NCBI RefSeq assembly: GCF_019599405.1
Contig: NZ_RKLQ01000004.1
Span: forward strand, 62,001-126,000
Source: Haloarcula salinisoli
GTDB lineage: Archaea > Halobacteriota > Halobacteria > Halobacteriales > Haloarculaceae
Direction of reading: 5' to 3'
Length of the DNA stretch: 64,000 bases
Positions 23,470 through 46,877 of the stretch are shown here, piece after piece (position 1 is the stretch's first letter; each line of letters opens with the position of its first letter). The notes below the pieces were generated by a model. It saw only the letters and a list, made by a program, of their open reading frames with translations. It was not told the origin of the DNA and did no database searches. The position numbers were made by a program, and so were the translations under genes.

Positions 23470-24967
23470 ACAGGTGGAGCAGGCCGAGTGCCTCGGGGTC
23501 TTCAGAAGACTTCGTCTTCCGTGATGACGAGACGCGATGCGTCTCGAACCACTTGACCCAGAGGGTGAAGGCCGTAAGCTCAGGGTGTTCCACTTTCACT
23601 GTGGATGGCTGGCATTCAAGATAATCGCACTACTACACTGGTACTGGAGCGAATGACCGACGCACAGGCTCTCGTCAAGACGCTGGACTTCCAACTCGAC
23701 ATCCAGAGTGACAACGAGGGCCTGCTGTACGACGCCACGGTCGAAGCCCGCCGAGTGTACAACGAAACCATCCGACTCGCCAAAGAAGGCGTGGACTGGG
23801 ACGCCATTCCCGACAGGGTAGCCGACGACGCTGACCTCGTGAAGAACACTACTCAGCGTGTCGTTGCGAAGGCACTCGGTGCGATGGAGAACTACTACGA
23901 ATACGACGACTTCGGCCAACCGAGCCACACCAAGGGCGGAACGTACCCGCTTCGTGCGAACTACGAGGAGGGGTACAACCTGTCGCTCACCGACGACGGC
24001 GACGTGGCGTTCCGAATCAGCGCGAAGCCGTACAAGCACGTCAAAGGCGTTCTCGAAGGTGACGACGCGCACCTCGATATTCTCAAGACTGCCCTCACGA
24101 GTGATGAGTGGAAGGTCGGGACGGCTGAAGCCCTATTCCACAACGACAACCCCGAGTTGCACGTCAACGTCACCAACACCAAGCAATCCGTTCGAGACAA
24201 GCAGGACTCACGGACGGTTGTCGGTGTGGACGTGAACGAGGACAACGTGGCCCTCACCGCTCTGTCCGAAGATGGCGTGGAGGACACGCTGGTTATCGAC
24301 TTTCCCGAAATCAAGTTCGAGCGTCACCGCTACTTCACGATGCGGAAGCGCGTCCAGAACGCGGGGAAGGACAGCATCCACGACACGTTGGAAGGGTGTG
24401 AGGAACGGTTCGTCCGCGACCGACTCCACAAAGTGAGCCGTCACATCGTGGAGTGGAGCCAGCAGTTCGAGAAGCCGTGCATCGTCTTTGAAGACCTCAA
24501 AGAGATGCGCGACAGTATCGACTACGGCACGCGGATGAATCGACGCTTGCACCACCTCCCGTTCCGCGCCCTCCAGTTATATACGTCGTACAAGGCGTCG
24601 TTCGAGCGCATCCCGACTGCGTGGATTAACCCCGAATACACGAGCCAGCGGTGTCCGATGTGTGGGCATACGGAACGGGCGAACCGCAACAAAAAGCGGT
24701 TCAAGTGCCGGTCGTGTTCGCATCAAGACCACAGCGACCGTGGTGCAAGCGTCAATATCGCTGTGAAAGGCATGAAGAAACTCGATTGGAATGTGCCTGC
24801 TCTCAATAGCCTTCCCGTTGTTCGGAAGGTGCGACGGCAGGCATCGGGGGCTGTGGACGCCCCGACCGTGACCCACCCAACCGTTCGAGGCTATCAGGCC
24901 GATGGTCGGATGGGAGTGTCCGACTAAACCACGGGAAGCCTCGGGGCTTGACCTCGAGGCGGTTCAC
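23470..24967 (+). mobile_element. tnpB-only (IS1341-type, IS200/IS605 family) element inserted in the origin repeats
   Basis: It holds one tnpB gene and no TnpA. Subterminal palindromes lie at the left (GAAGACTTCGTCTTC at 23506-23520, GAGACGCGATGCGTCTC at 23530-23546). The right end reads GGAAGCCTCGGGGCTTGACC (24933-24952) and finishes GGCGGTTCAC at 24967. The left boundary is approximate. Origin-type repeats lie on both sides. The bases after the right end (TACACTACTACTTACTAGAA) would be the natural guide of the element's right-end RNA. Confidence 0.7.
23653..24927 (+). CDS. tnpB: TnpB RNA-guided nuclease, copy 1
   Basis: 424 residues from the ATG at 23653 (MTDAQALVKTLDFQL); the open frame begins 16 codons earlier. 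RuvC residues are present: D in VVGVDVNEDN, E in IVFEDLKEMRD, and D in HSDRGASVNIA. A four-cysteine zinc finger is CPMC...CRSC. TnpB proteins are RNA-guided DNA endonucleases that use the element's right-end transcript. No TnpA transposase is nearby, so movement would need one in trans. It is clearly different from the other three copies in the window. Confidence 0.9.
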   Translation: MTDAQALVKTLDFQLDIQSDNEGLLYDATVEARRVYNETIRLAKEGVDWDAIPDRVADDADLVKNTTQRVVAKALGAMENYYEYDDFGQPSHTKGGTYPLRANYEEGYNLSLTDDGDVAFRISAKPYKHVKGVLEGDDAHLDILKTALTSDEWKVGTAEALFHNDNPELHVNVTNTKQSVRDKQDSRTVVGVDVNEDNVALTALSEDGVEDTLVIDFPEIKFERHRYFTMRKRVQNAGKDSIHDTLEGCEERFVRDRLHKVSRHIVEWSQQFEKPCIVFEDLKEMRDSIDYGTRMNRRLHHLPFRALQLYTSYKASFERIPTAWINPEYTSQRCPMCGHTERANRNKKRFKCRSCSHQDHSDRGASVNIAVKGMKKLDWNVPALNSLPVVRKVRRQASGAVDAPTVTHPTVRGYQADGRMGVSD

Positions 24968-25000
24968 TACACTACTACTTACTAGAATAGCTAGACTAGA

Positions 25001-26903: not shown

Positions 26904-27485
26904 ATGTCTGAGAGTCCTGCTCGACACTCCCATCCCCTCGATTTGATGCTCGCAGTATCTGATGTCGTGGTGAATAAGCGGTATGCCCAAATCTACGCTC
27001 AAGTGCTTACACTCGATACCCCGACTGTCGAGGAGCTCTCTGAAGATCTTGATAGTTCGACCACCACTGTCTATGAAGACATGAAGCACCTAGTCGAGAG
27101 TGACATCCTTGAGCGCGTTACTGAAACGCAACCACACCGATATCAGGCCCGAGAGATCGATCTCAACGTCCAAGCCGGAGATGAAACCTACGAGATTACG
27201 CCGGCGCTGTTCGTTGCTCTAGCTCGCAGTGAAACGAATGAGAATCTTCGATTGTTTATAGACCGTCACGGCACAGGCGGGCTTGCAGGCGCACTCGAGT
27301 ACGCTCGTAACTACGTTCAGGGTCAGATGAACGCCCGAATTATGGCACGCGAGCAGGATATACCGGTCCTCGAAGCGGAGACCATTCTACAGGAACTGCG
27401 TGACGTGCTCCTCGATGTCGAACCGGATCGAGAACAGAGTCCAGATATCGAGGAGTTGGAAGCCGAAGTTGACGATAGAAATTAG
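26904..27485 (+). CDS. winged-HTH regulator
   Basis: 193 residues. The N-terminal half is a wHTH of the TrmB/ArsR-like kind (VVNKRYAQIYAQVLTLDTPTVEELSEDLDSSTTTVYEDMKHLVESDILERV). The rest is helical with a conserved-looking ITPALFVALARSETNENLRLFIDRHGTGGLAGALEYAR. It is a cytoplasmic DNA-binding regulator by architecture. It precedes the VapBC-like pair on the same strand by 92 bp and could control it. The TATA-like ATAATATAT lies just before the ATG. Confidence 0.75.
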   Translation: MSESPARHSHPLDLMLAVSDVVVNKRYAQIYAQVLTLDTPTVEELSEDLDSSTTTVYEDMKHLVESDILERVTETQPHRYQAREIDLNVQAGDETYEITPALFVALARSETNENLRLFIDRHGTGGLAGALEYARNYVQGQMNARIMAREQDIPVLEAETILQELRDVLLDVEPDREQSPDIEELEAEVDDRN

Positions 27486-37386: not shown

Positions 37387-37546
37387 ATGACTACATTACT
37401 GGACGACGATATCCGAAAGAGGGTCACCAACCCTCTCGATTCGGTTCACCAAGAAACCGGAGACACCCCGTTTCGAGTGTTTTCCGACTGGGTCAACCTA
37501 ACACTCGCTAGCTTCACCGGTGATGAAGAAAACTATCTTTCTTCGA
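37387..37546 (+). pseudogene. 5' piece of a GQYFTP-type methylase-like gene
   Basis: Starts MTTLLDDDIRKRVTNPLDSVHQETGDTPFRVFSDWVNLTLASFTGDEENYLSS, then the frame enters a tnpB element. It continues beyond that element at 38986. The ATG is 22 bp after the SWIM gene. Confidence 0.65.
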
Positions 37547-37672
37547 GGAGAGAATCCCGTCGTTTACGACGGGAGTGAATCCGATAACCCTGACGCCAAC
37601 TCCCGCCGATAGCAGCCCGGATATTCAACGATAATCCGGGCCATTAAGTAATATTACCGACATAGGCTATGT

Positions 37673-38923
37673 ATGGCGATTGAGGCCACTCGAACCTATG
37701 TTGGTTCCATCCAGAACCACCGGCAGGTCTGTGGCGGCCTCGATTCGCTCGGTGATTCCGCCTCCAAAATTTGGAACGTCGCGCGATGGACAGCAGAACG
37801 CATCTGGGATGCAACTGGCGAAATACCAGATGAGGGCGTGCTGAAATCGTACCTGAAGAACCAAGCGTGCTGGAAAGATTTGAACGCACAATCCAGTCAG
37901 AAAGTCATCGAAGAACTTTCGGACGCTTTCCAGTCATGGTTTGACCTGCGACAGAAAGACGACACGGCGAATCCGCCCGGCTACCGCAAACACGGCGACA
38001 AACGACCACGGAGCACGGTCACATTCAAAGAAGACGGATTCAAATACGACGCCGAGAACAACCGCGTCCGCCTCTCGAAAGGCTCGAATCTGAAAGACCA
38101 CTTCTCGGACTTCCTCCTCTGTGAGTACCAGATGCGCCCGGATGTTGACCTCTCAGAAGTCAACTCGGTGCAGAACGTCCGAGCGGTCTGGAACGGCGAC
38201 GAATGGGAGCTGCATTTCGTCTGCAAAGTTGAACTCGAAACGAACGACTCAGCAGGCGACGGCGTGGCAGGAATCGACCTCGGCATCACGAACATCGCCA
38301 CGGTTGCCTTCCCTGACGAATACGTGCTGTACCCCGGCAACTCGCTCAAGCAAGACAAGCACTACTTCAAGCGTTCTGAGTACGATACTGAAGGGGAGGA
38401 CGGCCCGTCTGAGAAGTCGATGTGGGCACGGCGAAAACTCACAGAGCGTGAGACGCACTTTTACCACACGCTGACGGATGCCATCATCACGGAGTGTGTC
38501 GAACGCGGTGTTGGCACGCTGGCGGTGAGTTGGCCCGAAAATGTGCGAGAGTCGGATTGGGGCAAGACCGGCAACAAGAAGTTGCACTCGTGGGCGTTCG
38601 ACCGCATCTACCAATACCTCGAATACAAAGGCGAGATCCGTGGCGTTGAGGTGCTGAAGGAGAACGAATGGGGAACCAGTAAGACCTGTTCACGGTGTGG
38701 TTCCGAGCAGAAGTCGAACCGAAAGCACCGTGGTCTGTACGTCTGCTCGTCGTGTGAATTGGTCGGGAACGCAGATTGCAACGGGGCGGAGAATATGCGG
38801 CAGAAGATAACTCCGAGTCCTCACGGCGAGGATAGGAGTAACGGCTGTGTGGCACAGCCATCGACATACTTGTTCGACCGCGAGAGCGGGACGTTTCGCA
38901 CGAGAGAGCAAGCCGTGTCGTAG
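37673..38923 (+). CDS. tnpB: TnpB RNA-guided nuclease, copy 2
   Basis: 416 residues. RuvC motifs: GIDLGITNIA (D), SWPENVRESDWGK (E) and GNADCNGAENM (D). The zinc finger is CSRCGS...CSSCEL. The catalytic acids look intact. The C-terminus extends beyond the last RuvC motif with a variable tail (DRSNGCVAQPST...). The gene lies wholly within the element 37547-38985. It should be an active RNA-guided nuclease, by comparison with the family. Confidence 0.9.
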   Translation: MAIEATRTYVGSIQNHRQVCGGLDSLGDSASKIWNVARWTAERIWDATGEIPDEGVLKSYLKNQACWKDLNAQSSQKVIEELSDAFQSWFDLRQKDDTANPPGYRKHGDKRPRSTVTFKEDGFKYDAENNRVRLSKGSNLKDHFSDFLLCEYQMRPDVDLSEVNSVQNVRAVWNGDEWELHFVCKVELETNDSAGDGVAGIDLGITNIATVAFPDEYVLYPGNSLKQDKHYFKRSEYDTEGEDGPSEKSMWARRKLTERETHFYHTLTDAIITECVERGVGTLAVSWPENVRESDWGKTGNKKLHSWAFDRIYQYLEYKGEIRGVEVLKENEWGTSKTCSRCGSEQKSNRKHRGLYVCSSCELVGNADCNGAENMRQKITPSPHGEDRSNGCVAQPSTYLFDRESGTFRTREQAVS

Positions 38924-38947
38924 ACCAGCAAATATCCCACCTTCGGT

Positions 38948-38985
38948 ACGGGAAGCCTCGCCGTTTACGGCGAGGAGGATGTCAC
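38948..38985 (+). ncRNA. right-end (omega-type) RNA region of copy 2
   Basis: Stem CCTCGCCG/CGGCGAGG with loop TTTA, preceded by CGGGAAG and followed by AGGATGTCAC. The same structure in copy 4 (44936-44973) has compensatory changes, as expected for a guide-RNA scaffold. Confidence 0.55.
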
Positions 38986-39459
38986 CAGAAGATACTCAGC
39001 CGATACAGGATCGACGGATTCGATGAGGATGCTGTAGACCAACTAGTCAACCTTCATGTCGAGGCTCTCGGAGGGTTAGTCCTCGGGTTGGAAGAGTCAA
39101 ACGAGGATATTCTGGGAGGGGTGTACGAACACTACGGCCTTACTAGCGACCGCTTTGGTCAGTACTTCACACCAGGCCCGGTGAGCCGAGCGATGGCAGC
39201 GATGACTATTCCAGACGACGGGGAGCTACGAGAGGCAACACTTGATGATCCACTGGTCATCGGTGACATATCCGGGTGTGGGAGTGGACGACTCATTGTA
39301 GACACTGCTCGGCAGTTACGGGCAGTTGCCCCCGAGGTTCCGGCTGTCTTCCTTGGATACGAAAAGGATTCGCTGTGTGCAAAGATGGCAGTAATCAATT
39401 GCGTACTCAACGACATCACCGGATACGTTCTCCTCGGTGACGCTGTAAACTACCCTACT
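38986..39459 (+). pseudogene. middle piece of the methylase-like gene
   Basis: Frame continues QKILSRYRIDGFDEDAVDQL... then GQYFTPGPVSRAMAAM (HsdM-type N6-methylase signature), and the SAM-binding-like DISGCGSGRL, through GDAVNY where the next element begins. It carries the recognisable domain of the gene. Confidence 0.7.
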
Positions 39460-40899
39460 CCCTCAGCGCATACGCGCCTCGGTGCTTGAGTGTAGGGCTT
39501 TGATGTGGACTCCCGGCAATCAGTCACCGGCAATAGGCTGGTGACTCTCGCCGCTCAACGTCCCACCATTCAGACGCACGTCTACTGGTGCGTCTCCGGT
39601 CCTCGACGTGGGCGAGGACCGGAGTCTGTGTTTCCGCTTCCGGGCGTATCGTAGCCCGATGTTCTTCGCGGCGTTATAGTCCGCGTTGACCTCGTAGCCG
39701 CACTTCTGGCAGTGAAAGTGTTCGCCATCACGGTTTGCTTCGTGCGTGAACCCACAGTCTGTCCGAGAGCAGCGCTGGGACGTGTGGTTCGATGCAACCT
39801 GCTTCGCCGTAACGCCGCGTTCGGCGCCCTTGTACTCGACGTACTCGACCAAGCGACGGAACGCCCACACGTGATGCCACTTCGCCTGTGGAAGTCGCTC
39901 TCGGATGTCCGTTAAGTCCTCGAACACGATCACGTCGCAATCATGTTCGACGGCTTCAGTGACGATTTCGTTGGCGACAGTGTGGATGTACTGCTTTCGC
40001 CACGATTCTTCACGCTTACCCAGACGAAGAAGCGCGTTGTGCGCAGCTTGCGTTCCACGCTGTTGCATCTCACTCCGCCGTTTCTCAAACTCACGGCACC
40101 AATGGTCGTATTCATCGCCCTGCCAGAACGTACCGGTTGAAGCTACTGCGAGGCTGTTGACGCCGAGGTCGATACCGAGGACTGTTTGGTGCTCGGTATC
40201 TTCCGAAACCTCAGGCTTGTCATCATCAGAATCGTACTTCCGGGTCGTGATGTGGAAGTAGAACTCGTCAGTTGCCTTATCGTATTGCAGTGTGCTCGCC
40301 CGGAACTCGTACTCCTCCGAGAGAACATACCGCTCGTAGGGGGTCGGACTGTCTGCCGGAAGCTCAAAGTCGCACTCAACGCGCCCGTTAACGGTCGAGA
40401 GGGACACACGGTTACGATAAAACGTAGCGCTCCGCTTATCATAGAGCATACTCCATGACGTGAACTCAGGCTGACTCACCCGCTGGCCTTGCTTCCACCG
40501 TTCGACACATCCATTTACGGCTTGGACGGCGCGTCGGATGGCTTCTTGAACGAGATTCGCGGTGAGGTCGGTTTCCACGCGGAGTTCCCCGTAGAGCGCG
40601 TCCCGTGCAGTTGTGTTGGCCGTTATACATTCTGTGTAAGAGACGTCAGACCAACAGAAATCTGCAGCACGGTTGGCGCAGTGAAGGAACTGCTGAGCAG
40701 ATTCGTGGAGATCCTCATGTCGCTCGTCGGGAACGACAAGTTTGACGGGCGCAGTACGCCGGACCTCCATGTTTCAGATTTGGGCTTAACGGTTCTTATA
40801 CATTCGGGGGTCGGGTAGCTACCGTCGTACAGTTATCTCGTCCTTCGTCGGTTTCCCCTCCGACCTACTCACTCGCTTTGCTCGCTCCTTAATCTCGTA
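39460..40899 (-). mobile_element. tnpB-only (IS1341-type) element, copy 3, minus orientation
   Basis: The right end (lower coordinate) has CCTACTCCCTCAGCGCATAC (39460-39479), pairing with TTGAGTGTAGG downstream. The left end has CCTAC/GTAGG-type repeats around 40860-40900. It belongs to a different subgroup from copies 2 and 4. Boundaries are approximate. It interrupts the methylase-like gene a second time. Confidence 0.65.
39520..40770 (-). CDS. tnpB: TnpB RNA-guided nuclease, copy 3
   Basis: 416 residues. RuvC motifs: LGIDLGVNSLAVAS (D), VIVFEDLTDIRERL (E) and VNADYNAAKNIG (D). Cys ligands: CSRTDCGF and CQKCGY. All catalytic acids are present. It lies on the minus strand inside the element 39460-40899. 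It has a Gln/His-rich N-terminus (ESAQQFLHCANRAADFCW), the usual WED/REC start of this TnpB group. Confidence 0.9.
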   Translation of the reverse strand: MEVRRTAPVKLVVPDERHEDLHESAQQFLHCANRAADFCWSDVSYTECITANTTARDALYGELRVETDLTANLVQEAIRRAVQAVNGCVERWKQGQRVSQPEFTSWSMLYDKRSATFYRNRVSLSTVNGRVECDFELPADSPTPYERYVLSEEYEFRASTLQYDKATDEFYFHITTRKYDSDDDKPEVSEDTEHQTVLGIDLGVNSLAVASTGTFWQGDEYDHWCREFEKRRSEMQQRGTQAAHNALLRLGKREESWRKQYIHTVANEIVTEAVEHDCDVIVFEDLTDIRERLPQAKWHHVWAFRRLVEYVEYKGAERGVTAKQVASNHTSQRCSRTDCGFTHEANRDGEHFHCQKCGYEVNADYNAAKNIGLRYARKRKHRLRSSPTSRTGDAPVDVRLNGGTLSGESHQPIAGD

Positions 40900-44579: not shown

Positions 44580-44936
44580 ATGGACTCTATCACAGCGTCA
44601 CAAACCGCTTCTCGACCACCCGGTTTCTCAGAGGAAAGCATCGCGCACATCCGCCGTGTAAAGCACCTTCGCGCTATCGTCAGAGAAGATCTCGGTCCGG
44701 ATGTTGAGTGTGGCGGTCTGGAACAAAAAGTAGCCAGTTCACTGTATCACCACCATCCGTCGATTCGGCTCGAAGATGCACTGGAACTGAAGTGCCATCT
44801 GAAAGAGCCGTCTACGGAGGGTTCGACAGACTCTGCTATCAAGGGCATCGTCGACGAAGCTTGTACACTACTGGAGAGCTGGGGTCGTCTCGGTCAGACC
44901 CAGTCTGAGGACCCGAATGCAGCCTTTGACTACTAG
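44580..44936 (+). CDS. small helical hypothetical protein
   Basis: 118 residues from the ATG at 44580, chosen because the earlier in-frame ATG would translate the hairpin element. The sequence is helical (SEESIAHIRRVKHLRAIVREDLGPDVECG...). Its stop TAG is exactly where a tnpB element's right end begins, so the gene may have lost its natural 3' end. Confidence 0.6.
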   Translation: MDSITASQTASRPPGFSEESIAHIRRVKHLRAIVREDLGPDVECGGLEQKVASSLYHHHPSIRLEDALELKCHLKEPSTEGSTDSAIKGIVDEACTLLESWGRLGQTQSEDPNAAFDY

Positions 44937-44973
44937 TGACATCCTCCCCGTCGTAAACGACGGGGCTTCCCAC
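44936..44973 (-). ncRNA. right-end (omega-type) RNA region of copy 4
   Basis: Minus strand: GGGAAG, stem CCCCGTCG, loop TTTA, CGACGGGG, then AGGATGTCAC. Compared with copy 2 three stem pairs differ by compensating changes, so the structure rather than the sequence is kept. Confidence 0.55.
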
Positions 44974-44989
44974 ACGGTGGGAATGCCAG

Positions 44990-46264
44990 TCAGTCGTCGC
45001 TGGCAGTGGGTTTCGACTCTTGAAACGTTGTGAGTGTCATCTGCGAGGGTGTCTCGCTCTGCTCACACTGAGTCGTGGCGGTGTCACAACCGCTCCCGTC
45101 CTGTGGCGAGTCATCGCCTGCTTGTTTCCACGGCAGACTCTCTCCCCACGGGTCTACGCGACGTGCGATGTTCGCACTCGCGTTAATATCTGCTTGGAAC
45201 GTCGATACGTGGCACTCTGAGTTCTTGCACTTGAACTCGGCTTGCCGAGGGCGATACCCGATGTGCTTGCACGAGTGGCACGTCTTCGAGGTGTACTGCG
45301 GGTGAACGTACCTGACTGGAATCCCGGCGTCCTTCGCCTTGTCCTCGATACGTCCCTGCAAGCGAGCGAAGGCCCACGAGTGCAAGCGTCGATTCATGTA
45401 CTTCCCGTAGTCCAGTGATTCGCGGATGTACGCCAAGTCCTCCATCACGATAACTGGATTCACGAACTGACGAGCATACTCCACGGACTCACGAGAAGCC
45501 TTCTCGATGATGTCAGTGAGACGGTTCTGGTAGTACGAGAAACGTTCCTCGATACGCCACTCAGATGCGTCACGCTCTTGGAGTCGCTTGAGAGTAGTGA
45601 ACATCTCTTTGCGGATTCGCTTGGCTTCCCTCCCGTTGATGAGGAGTGGTTTCGTGGGAGTGTCGTGTTGGAGGGCACAGCCCGTGACCAACATCGACTC
45701 GCCAATATCGAACCCAACCCGAGTCGGATTCTCGGGCAACTCAGAAGTGTCCTCGATTTCGTATTCAACAGTAACGTGGAGTGTCCACGTCTTCTGGTGT
45801 TTCTGCAAGCGAAGTTCGCCCACTTTGGTACTCGATTCCTCATCGAGCATCTCATCCCACAACTCCCCTTGTTCGGGATTCAAACGGAGTGGTATCCAGA
45901 AGTTGGTTCCCCGACCGGGTTGCGGAACGTTCCAACAGATTTCGTACTCACGCGATGTGTCGCGGTCGAACTTCCCGGCTCGATTCACGAATCGGAGCGG
46001 GTGTTCGTCGTCCAACTCGTTGGCGTTGTACGTGTTGTGGAGTTTCGGGACGTAGGATTTGAGGGCGTCTTTCGCTTGGTACGGTAAGTTGTACGGTGTC
46101 ACCACTTTGTTCGTGGCGCTCATCGTCTCACAGTCTTGCTCGAAGGCATCGTGGAGTGCGTCTCGGTATTCGGACAGCGTTTGCTGGAGGCGTTGCTCTT
46201 TGCACCACGTTGGGGGTGCGAGCGTGGCTTCCAGCGTTTTATTCGCCGTCTGAGTCGTTGACAT
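44990..46264 (-). CDS. tnpB: TnpB RNA-guided nuclease, copy 4
   Basis: 424 residues. RuvC motifs: VGFDIGESMLV (D), VIVMEDLAYIRESL (E) and QADINASANIARR (D). Zinc ligands: CHSCKH and CKNSEC. All catalytic acids are present. It starts 26 bases upstream of the end of a small ORF on the same strand, so the two are coupled. The right end resembles copy 2, but the protein differs at length. Confidence 0.9.
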   Translation of the reverse strand: MSTTQTANKTLEATLAPPTWCKEQRLQQTLSEYRDALHDAFEQDCETMSATNKVVTPYNLPYQAKDALKSYVPKLHNTYNANELDDEHPLRFVNRAGKFDRDTSREYEICWNVPQPGRGTNFWIPLRLNPEQGELWDEMLDEESSTKVGELRLQKHQKTWTLHVTVEYEIEDTSELPENPTRVGFDIGESMLVTGCALQHDTPTKPLLINGREAKRIRKEMFTTLKRLQERDASEWRIEERFSYYQNRLTDIIEKASRESVEYARQFVNPVIVMEDLAYIRESLDYGKYMNRRLHSWAFARLQGRIEDKAKDAGIPVRYVHPQYTSKTCHSCKHIGYRPRQAEFKCKNSECHVSTFQADINASANIARRVDPWGESLPWKQAGDDSPQDGSGCDTATTQCEQSETPSQMTLTTFQESKPTASDD

Positions 46265-46400
46265 CGTAGCCTTCGGATTCGAGTGCTTTGCGGAGGAGTT
46301 CGGGGTACGCTCGTGAGTGGCGTATCCCGTGGTCCCGGGCGTATTCCTTCAAGGCTTCGTGAAGTGGCCCGCCTCGCTCCATATCGAAGTCGGCCCTCAT
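46239..46400 (-). CDS. small protein encoded just upstream of tnpB copy 4
   Basis: 53 residues, MRADFDMERGGPLHEALKEY and ARDHGIRHSRAYPELLRKAL, ending ESEGYDVNDSDGE. The ATG is at 46398-46400 and the stop overlaps the tnpB start by 26 bases in another frame. The amphipathic helix and basic centre could bind DNA, RNA or TnpB. It was found by reading the left end of the element on the minus strand and is shorter than typical ORF cut-offs. Function unknown. Confidence 0.6.
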   Translation of the reverse strand: MRADFDMERGGPLHEALKEYARDHGIRHSRAYPELLRKALESEGYDVNDSDGE

Positions 46401-46532
46401 CCATCAAAACGTAAGAAGTAGCGTAAGTTAAAGATAACGGTCGGCATTCGGATTGAGCGTCAGAGCGTGGTTTGTTCAGGAATTGTCGATTCCCTCCCGG
46501 CCTGAAGGCCGGGATTCCCTCCTTGAAGGAAG

Positions 46533-46877
46533 ATGGCCACTGACCAGGCGGTGCTTGAAACGCTTCCTCCAGAGAAACTTCTCGCTGCTACAAGATTACG
46601 TGTCATCAGGGCAGCGATTCGAATGTTTACCGAGGTAGAGAGTCTCGACTACTATATTTCTCACGAGAGAAATAGTGGAGGACGGGAGGGGATACTCAGA
46701 ATGCTTCGTGACCGGAAAAACGAACTCAGTGAGGCATCCGGCGGAAGCCCCCAAGATGGAAAATTGAAACAGTATCCAACAAAGGCCGCCCACACGGAAC
46801 CATTAGAGATGATCCACACGGAATACGAACCCCGTTTGATACGACGAGAGTTTGCACCGGACTGGAATGAGCTATAG
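46533..46877 (+). CDS. hypothetical protein next to tnpB copy 4
   Basis: 114 residues. A helical N-terminus (AVLETLPPEKLLAATRLRVIRAAIRMFTEVESLDYYISHE) is followed by REGILRMLRDRKNELSEA and an extended tail. The element's left end lies directly before the ATG, so its original promoter or upstream partner (44580-44936) has been separated. Function unknown. Confidence 0.6.
   Translation: MATDQAVLETLPPEKLLAATRLRVIRAAIRMFTEVESLDYYISHERNSGGREGILRMLRDRKNELSEASGGSPQDGKLKQYPTKAAHTEPLEMIHTEYEPRLIRREFAPDWNEL

Follow-up and report, generated by a model that had tools for sequence, protein, structure and literature searches.

Two tnpB elements of Haloarcula salinisoli end in hairpins that differ at bases which nevertheless pair in both. 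The question raised by this locus is what such compensation preserves: a stem in a guide RNA, a folded single-stranded DNA site for a transposase, or both. The window, the stretch of 64,000 nucleotides that was analysed and to which coordinates refer, is part of a 219-kb contig in a genome of 4.03 Mb and 10 contigs. The organisms in which close relatives of copy 2 occur, and Rfam, agree with a haloarchaeal origin. Judging from sequence comparison, we consider it very probable that the right-end hairpin of these two tnpB-only elements, copies 2 and 4, is used twice, as a DNA site for TnpA and as the omegaRNA stem-loop that precedes the guide.

Copies 2 and 4 are tnpB-only elements of two TnpB lineages

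The two elements and their genes are:
37537..38985, + strand: copy 2 element, tnpB only (near-empty site in the same-genus genomes G028, 92% protein identity, and G025)
44936..46532, - strand: copy 4 element, tnpB only (ends placed as in copy 2; G028 has an identical copy)
37673..38923, + strand: tnpB of copy 2; RuvC D202 and D368, S286 at the canonical glutamate, alternative glutamate E332 (Pfam; alignment of 90 relatives)
44990..46264, - strand: tnpB of copy 4, with the canonical RuvC glutamate (Pfam; alignment)

No Y1 transposase TnpA was found inside either copy, and the whole genome contains a single Y1_Tnp match, on a contig other than that of the window. Copies 2 and 4 are therefore tnpB-only elements of the IS1341 type, an accepted subgroup of IS200/IS605. 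The sole Y1 gene adjoins a tnpB 64% identical to that of copy 4, and the right-end layout there is alike. Its element (G000:C2:384621-386500; loci L014 and L017) has a tandemly duplicated left end, each left hairpin carrying a hairpin-bearing insert between the TT and CA of its loop.

The two TnpB proteins are 25% identical over 242 aligned residues, and both contain a Cas12f1-like TNB domain (Pfam). Each has the RuvC D-E-D residues of a TnpB nuclease, canonical in copy 4 and with an alternative glutamate in copy 2. We gathered 90 relatives for copy 2 and 30 for copy 4, the query copies counted in. In the copy 2 family, the canonical RuvC-II glutamate is absent from 90/90 rows, which have S or G instead, while E332, just before the zinc finger, is present in all 89 rows scored; an alternative RuvC glutamate at such a position has been described (PMC10711439). 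With E332 in the copy 2 family and the canonical glutamate in copy 4, two TnpB lineages that differ in their active sites thus have one common style of transposon end. The copy 2 lineage has the alternative glutamate, yet its ends are of the IS605 type and not the IS607 type.

Two further observations concern copy 4. In G028 (contig C10), exact identity extends for ~3.3 kb through and around the element. When aligned to copy 4, many of its relatives at 61-66% contain a single in-frame TGA, in several cases where the alignment stops near residue 417.

Right-end hairpins vary by compensatory change

The right-end hairpins, read directly from the sequence, are:
38956..38975, + strand: right-end hairpin of copy 2, from which this analysis started
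44946..44965, - strand: right-end hairpin of copy 4, CCCCGTCG TTTA CGACGGGG

On the + strand, the right end of copy 2 consists of GGGAAG (38950-38955), CCTCGCCG (38956-38963), the loop TTTA (38964-38967), CGGCGAGG (38968-38975) and AGGATGTCAC (38976-38985). That of copy 4, on the - strand, consists of GGGAAG, CCCCGTCG (44965-44958), TTTA (44957-44954), CGACGGGG (44953-44946) and AGGATGTCAC (44945-44936), the last being identical to the flank of copy 2. Two of the 8 pairs differ between the stems, both by compensatory change. The preliminary description was accurate on this point: each right end is a perfect 8-bp hairpin with a TTTA loop, the flanks are the same, and the bases that differ are paired in both. 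Among relatives, the 94 in-register rows contain 54 distinct 20-mers, with double-sided changes at several pairs (120 loci, less 14 that bear an insert, 1 unmatched and 11 off-register).

Since the stem of copy 2 is GC-rich and lies shortly 3' of the stop codon, the hairpin might be taken for a plain transcription terminator or for a palindrome that arose by chance. However, no T run follows the stem, and in relatives the flanks are conserved and the spacing to the element end is near-constant. Such hairpins are also commoner in the window than expected: 8 perfect 8-bp hairpins with 4-nt loops were found, compared with 1.3 expected under a first-order Markov model (maximum 3 in 20 draws), and half of these coincide with the left and right ends of copies 2 and 4, which argues against chance. 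A terminator or a fortuitous palindrome is accordingly an extremely unlikely explanation. Taken alone, AGGATGTCAC is unremarkable, with 5 matches in the window at one mismatch or fewer against 5.08 expected. One of its three exact matches, at 27100-27109, was considered as a third right end and rejected, as no hairpin of this kind adjoins it. The end of copy 1 (24926-24975) has GGGAAG, a GC-rich hairpin and GGTTCAC, repeating the GAAG/TCAC pairing with another stem.

Separately, a two-hairpin module of ~47 nt, CGTCGTCGGGC-TAC-GCCCGACTGC...GAGGGA...TCCCTC, was observed within the right-end hairpin loop of unrelated tnpB elements (L041, L045, L050, L051, L053-L055, L062, L066, L084, L120, L133 and L149, and L009 in this genome). 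Its own stems vary by compensatory change, and its pattern occurs in 43 of 146 genomes. Of 30 module loci, 28 were examined; most of these are in right ends, with one in a left end and several elsewhere. The module resembles the SMR-A repeats of Haloquadratum, which target IS605 palindromes and whose mobilisation was called enigmatic (PMC3119063).

Left ends and transposase pairing at the DNA level

The sites at the element ends are:
37533..37536, + strand: left cleavage site (CL) of copy 2, CTAT, the presumed TAM, outside the element (CL/GL pairing; G028 without the element)
37551..37554, + strand: left guide tetranucleotide (GL) of copy 2, AGAA (fixed register 5' of the left hairpin)
37555..37574, + strand: left-end hairpin of copy 2, TCCCGTCG TTTA CGACGGGA
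38952..38955, + strand: right guide tetranucleotide (GR) of copy 2, GAAG (register at the hairpin 5' foot)
38980..38985, + strand: last six bases of copy 2, TGTCAC, a pseudoknot arm that includes the right cleavage site (CR), TCAC (covariation)
46533..46536, - strand: left cleavage site of copy 4, CCAT (register by analogy with copy 2)
46495..46514, - strand: left-end hairpin of copy 4, TCCCGGCC TTCA GGCCGGGA, with GL GGAA just before it
44936..44941, - strand: last six bases of copy 4, TGTCAC (pseudoknot pairing)

As in other IS200/IS605 elements, subterminal hairpins are present at both ends, and the foot of the hairpin carries a guide tetranucleotide that pairs with the cleavage site. The left hairpin of copy 2, which had been equated with the right stem-loop of copy 4, matches it at 18 of 20 bases; the identity holds for an 18-nt core and fails at the outermost pair (T-A versus C-G). 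That some elements have identical left and right stems was rejected as a sign of co-evolution, since this occurs in 7 of 61 elements against 3.0 when shuffled (shuffle maximum 10).

In the guide/cleavage pairing scheme of IS608, g1 pairs with c2, g2 with c1 and g4 with c4. A left end was called in 74 of 119 elements, 68 of them usable, and CL/GL pairing at the three positions was observed in 64, 66 and 67 of these (shuffle maxima 61, 48 and 52), with control pairings at chance level or lower. At the right end, the hairpin-foot base and the element's last base (GR4/CR4) are paired in 97 of 102 loci (shuffle maximum 59), the fixed register having been applied to 102 of 120 loci, excluding 14 with inserts, a duplicate element and three more. 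In a third TnpB family, for which expectations for GR4/CR4, -6 and -1 were set in advance of inspection, they are paired in 66 of 71 (shuffle maximum 48; 71 of 81 loci). The fit of the left ends to the IS608 scheme, together with the agreement of GR4/CR4, marks the right-end hairpin as a transposase site.

Left-end stems, 39 of them distinct and drawn from 73 of 119 elements, also show compensatory changes, although they lie outside the omegaRNA. Taken with the GR4/CR4 pairing, this means that stem covariation cannot separate RNA from single-stranded DNA, and we rejected it as proof of an RNA. Moreover, with IS608-type pairing at both hairpins, selection on single-stranded DNA would suffice for the right stem. 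G-T intermediates outnumber A-C intermediates at the left (14:5) and at the right (23:10), and because the lean is alike at both ends it does not help to tell the two levels apart.

These data bear on two simpler readings. The first holds that the hairpin is a transposase DNA site only, that no omegaRNA of consequence exists, and that the needs of TnpA drive the covariation; the covarying left-end hairpins outside the RNA and the GL/CL and GR/CR pairing are in its favour. The second, implied by the preliminary description, makes the stem purely a guide RNA feature with no DNA role. The stem does lie inside the Rfam sot0042 model (see below), and the TTTA loop of copy 2, at -22 to -19, is near the UUUA loop beside the guide in the ISDra2 omegaRNA, at -20 to -17 (PMC10097598); the left end, however, carries the same hairpin, likewise accompanied by guide tetranucleotides, which makes a stem serving RNA exclusively extremely improbable.

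A covarying pseudoknot joins the element end to the tnpB ORF

The partners of the element ends are:
38849..38854, + strand: pseudoknot loop of copy 2, GTGGCA, a hairpin loop in the tnpB ORF (covariation with the element end)
45082..45087, - strand: pseudoknot loop of copy 4, GTGACA, in the tnpB ORF (covariation with the element end)

The terminal TGTCAC is able to pair with GTGGCA in copy 2 and with GTGACA in copy 4. Position -6, which is outside the cleavage tetranucleotide and has its partner within the tnpB ORF, forms a Watson-Crick pair with its loop base in 116 of 119 elements (shuffle maximum 89), and position -1 is paired in 103 of 119 (shuffle maximum 62); the patterns used to find the loop held its inner bases constant and, for relatives of copy 4, the partner of -1 as well. 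Among the named close relatives, -6 is paired in 71 of 73 usable cases (7 of 80 gave no loop). Elements ending in TCAT have an ATGGC loop in 12 of 13 cases, as expected from TCAC and TCAA ends. In the third family, -6 is paired in 75/75, with all four pair types (75 of 81 loci). The broader idea that pseudoknot pairing always includes the last base was rejected, as 36 of those 75, the TCAA members, have A opposite A.

On the protein tree, the fewest changes required are seven at -6, eight at its partner and nine jointly, and three at -1, six at its partner and six jointly, so that the row counts above overstate independence. Changes at these positions and their partners are mostly coincident but small in number; tests on independent pairs were few and did not reach significance.

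The last base of elements in the lineage of copy 2 may be read twice, in the DNA pairing for TnpA cleavage and in closing the RNA pseudoknot, a suggestion we put forward tentatively and think rather unlikely to hold. If true, any retargeting of the transposase would require the guide RNA scaffold to change in step and, by way of the loop, the nuclease gene too.

Internal structure of the predicted omegaRNA

The predicted RNA is:
38805..38985, + strand: omegaRNA scaffold of copy 2 (sot0042 match at 38805-38976 plus the last element bases)

Copy 2 matches the full 174-position model of Rfam sot0042 (RF02656) with 93.8 bits (gathering score 88), which places an RNA family over its tnpB 3' end and right end, as expected of an omegaRNA, and the pairing of the element end with an upstream loop is likewise as expected. 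Copy 4 matches no Rfam family at the gathering score, RF02656 included, but has covarying structure. In an alignment of 26 of the 30 loci of its family, the tnpB 3' end contains 19 internal pairs, which are paired in 97.8% of cells, and 14 of these pairs show double changes, compared with 9.5 when shuffled and 2 to 5 in slid controls. In copy 2 relatives (26 of 76 rows aligned), the internal helices hardly vary: a single helix shows covariation, and one covariation measure was not above shuffles.

The preliminary description thus reached a conclusion that stands, a structured guide RNA, through an argument that does not: it is the sot0042 match, the internal helices and the pseudoknot that support an RNA, the end stems being shared with DNA. 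The same evidence weighs against a hairpin acting as transposase DNA alone. Helices inside the tnpB 3' end covary, -6 covaries with a loop in the ORF, copy 2 matches sot0042, and sotRNAs are expressed in Halobacterium (PMC12558985). We regard the DNA-only reading as very unlikely.

Boundaries, target and predicted guide of copy 2

Joining the flanks of copy 2, CTATCTT to CAGAAG, leaves an intact N-6 methylase frame. Two same-genus genomes have this gene without copy 2, G025 (94% protein identity) and G028 (92%), and in G028 the DNA at the site reads GCTAT followed directly by CAGAAG. This near-empty site sets copy 2 at 37537-38985 (+/- one base, C), its target motif as CTAT and its guide as beginning at 38986. 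Insertion 3' of a short motif without target duplication, as in IS200/IS605, was accordingly found for copy 2, the copy for which an empty site was sought. The gene itself (37387-39489) is split by copy 2 and apparently again downstream by copy 3.

The guide is predicted as:
38986..39001, + strand: native guide of copy 2, CAGAAGATACTCAGCC, 16 nt (from the element boundary; length as in ISDra2)

The genome contains no second exact copy of these 16 bases, and three sites with two mismatches.

A model for doubly used transposon ends

We propose that the top strand of the right end, when single-stranded, would fold and be cut in trans by the lone Y1 TnpA. In the manner of IS608, GAAG at the hairpin 5' foot would pair with TCAC, the cleavage site at the terminus. 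The same strand would be transcribed into an omegaRNA containing the stem-loop, then AGGATGTCAC, then the flank as guide. The last six bases of AGGATGTCAC would form the pseudoknot with the loop in the tnpB coding region, and the last stem, the pseudoknot and the flank-derived guide would together load TnpB. Other TnpBs are established to cut the empty site left by excision; here, TnpB may bind and cut CTAT plus flank in the same way.

The analysis offers a way to tell DNA-level from RNA-level constraint at doubly used transposon ends, a separation of which we found no earlier instance in a limited literature search. It also carries a caution, that compensatory changes in end hairpins are by themselves no evidence for a guide RNA. 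Copy 2 gains boundaries, a predicted native guide and a target motif, and its covarying pseudoknot can be mutated directly.

Comparison with known systems

Haloarchaeal RNAs overlapping tnpB, the right-end hairpin and the pseudoknot are already published: the sotRNAs of Halobacterium IS1341-type tnpB genes are now termed omegaRNAs, and in H. salinarum the second hairpin loop forms a pseudoknot with the element end, which has a right-end hairpin (PMC12558985). Copy 2 resembles these in model match, pseudoknot and right-end hairpin, while copy 4 lies outside the Rfam models at threshold. The right ends also match HgcC RNA (RF00062), at 34.8 and 30.6 bits against a gathering score of 50, which does not place them in that family; most of the similarity comes from the terminal hairpin and the GAGGA-GUCA end. 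In T. kodakarensis, three HgcC RNAs begin within transposase genes (PMC4247193).

ISDra2 likewise has a UUUA-capped stem beside the guide and last bases pseudoknotted with an upstream loop, but there -5 to -3 pair canonically and -1A stands between pseudoknot and guide (PMC10097598), whereas here -6 covaries, and -1 does so in the family of copy 2 only. The IS608 TnpA tetranucleotides are CL TTAC with GL AAAG and CR TCAA with GR GAAT (PMC5934647), and some relatives have exactly these. Unlike IS608, copy 2 combines CTAT/AGAA with TCAC/GAAG and copy 4 CCAT/GGAA with TCAC/GAAG, in elements without tnpA.
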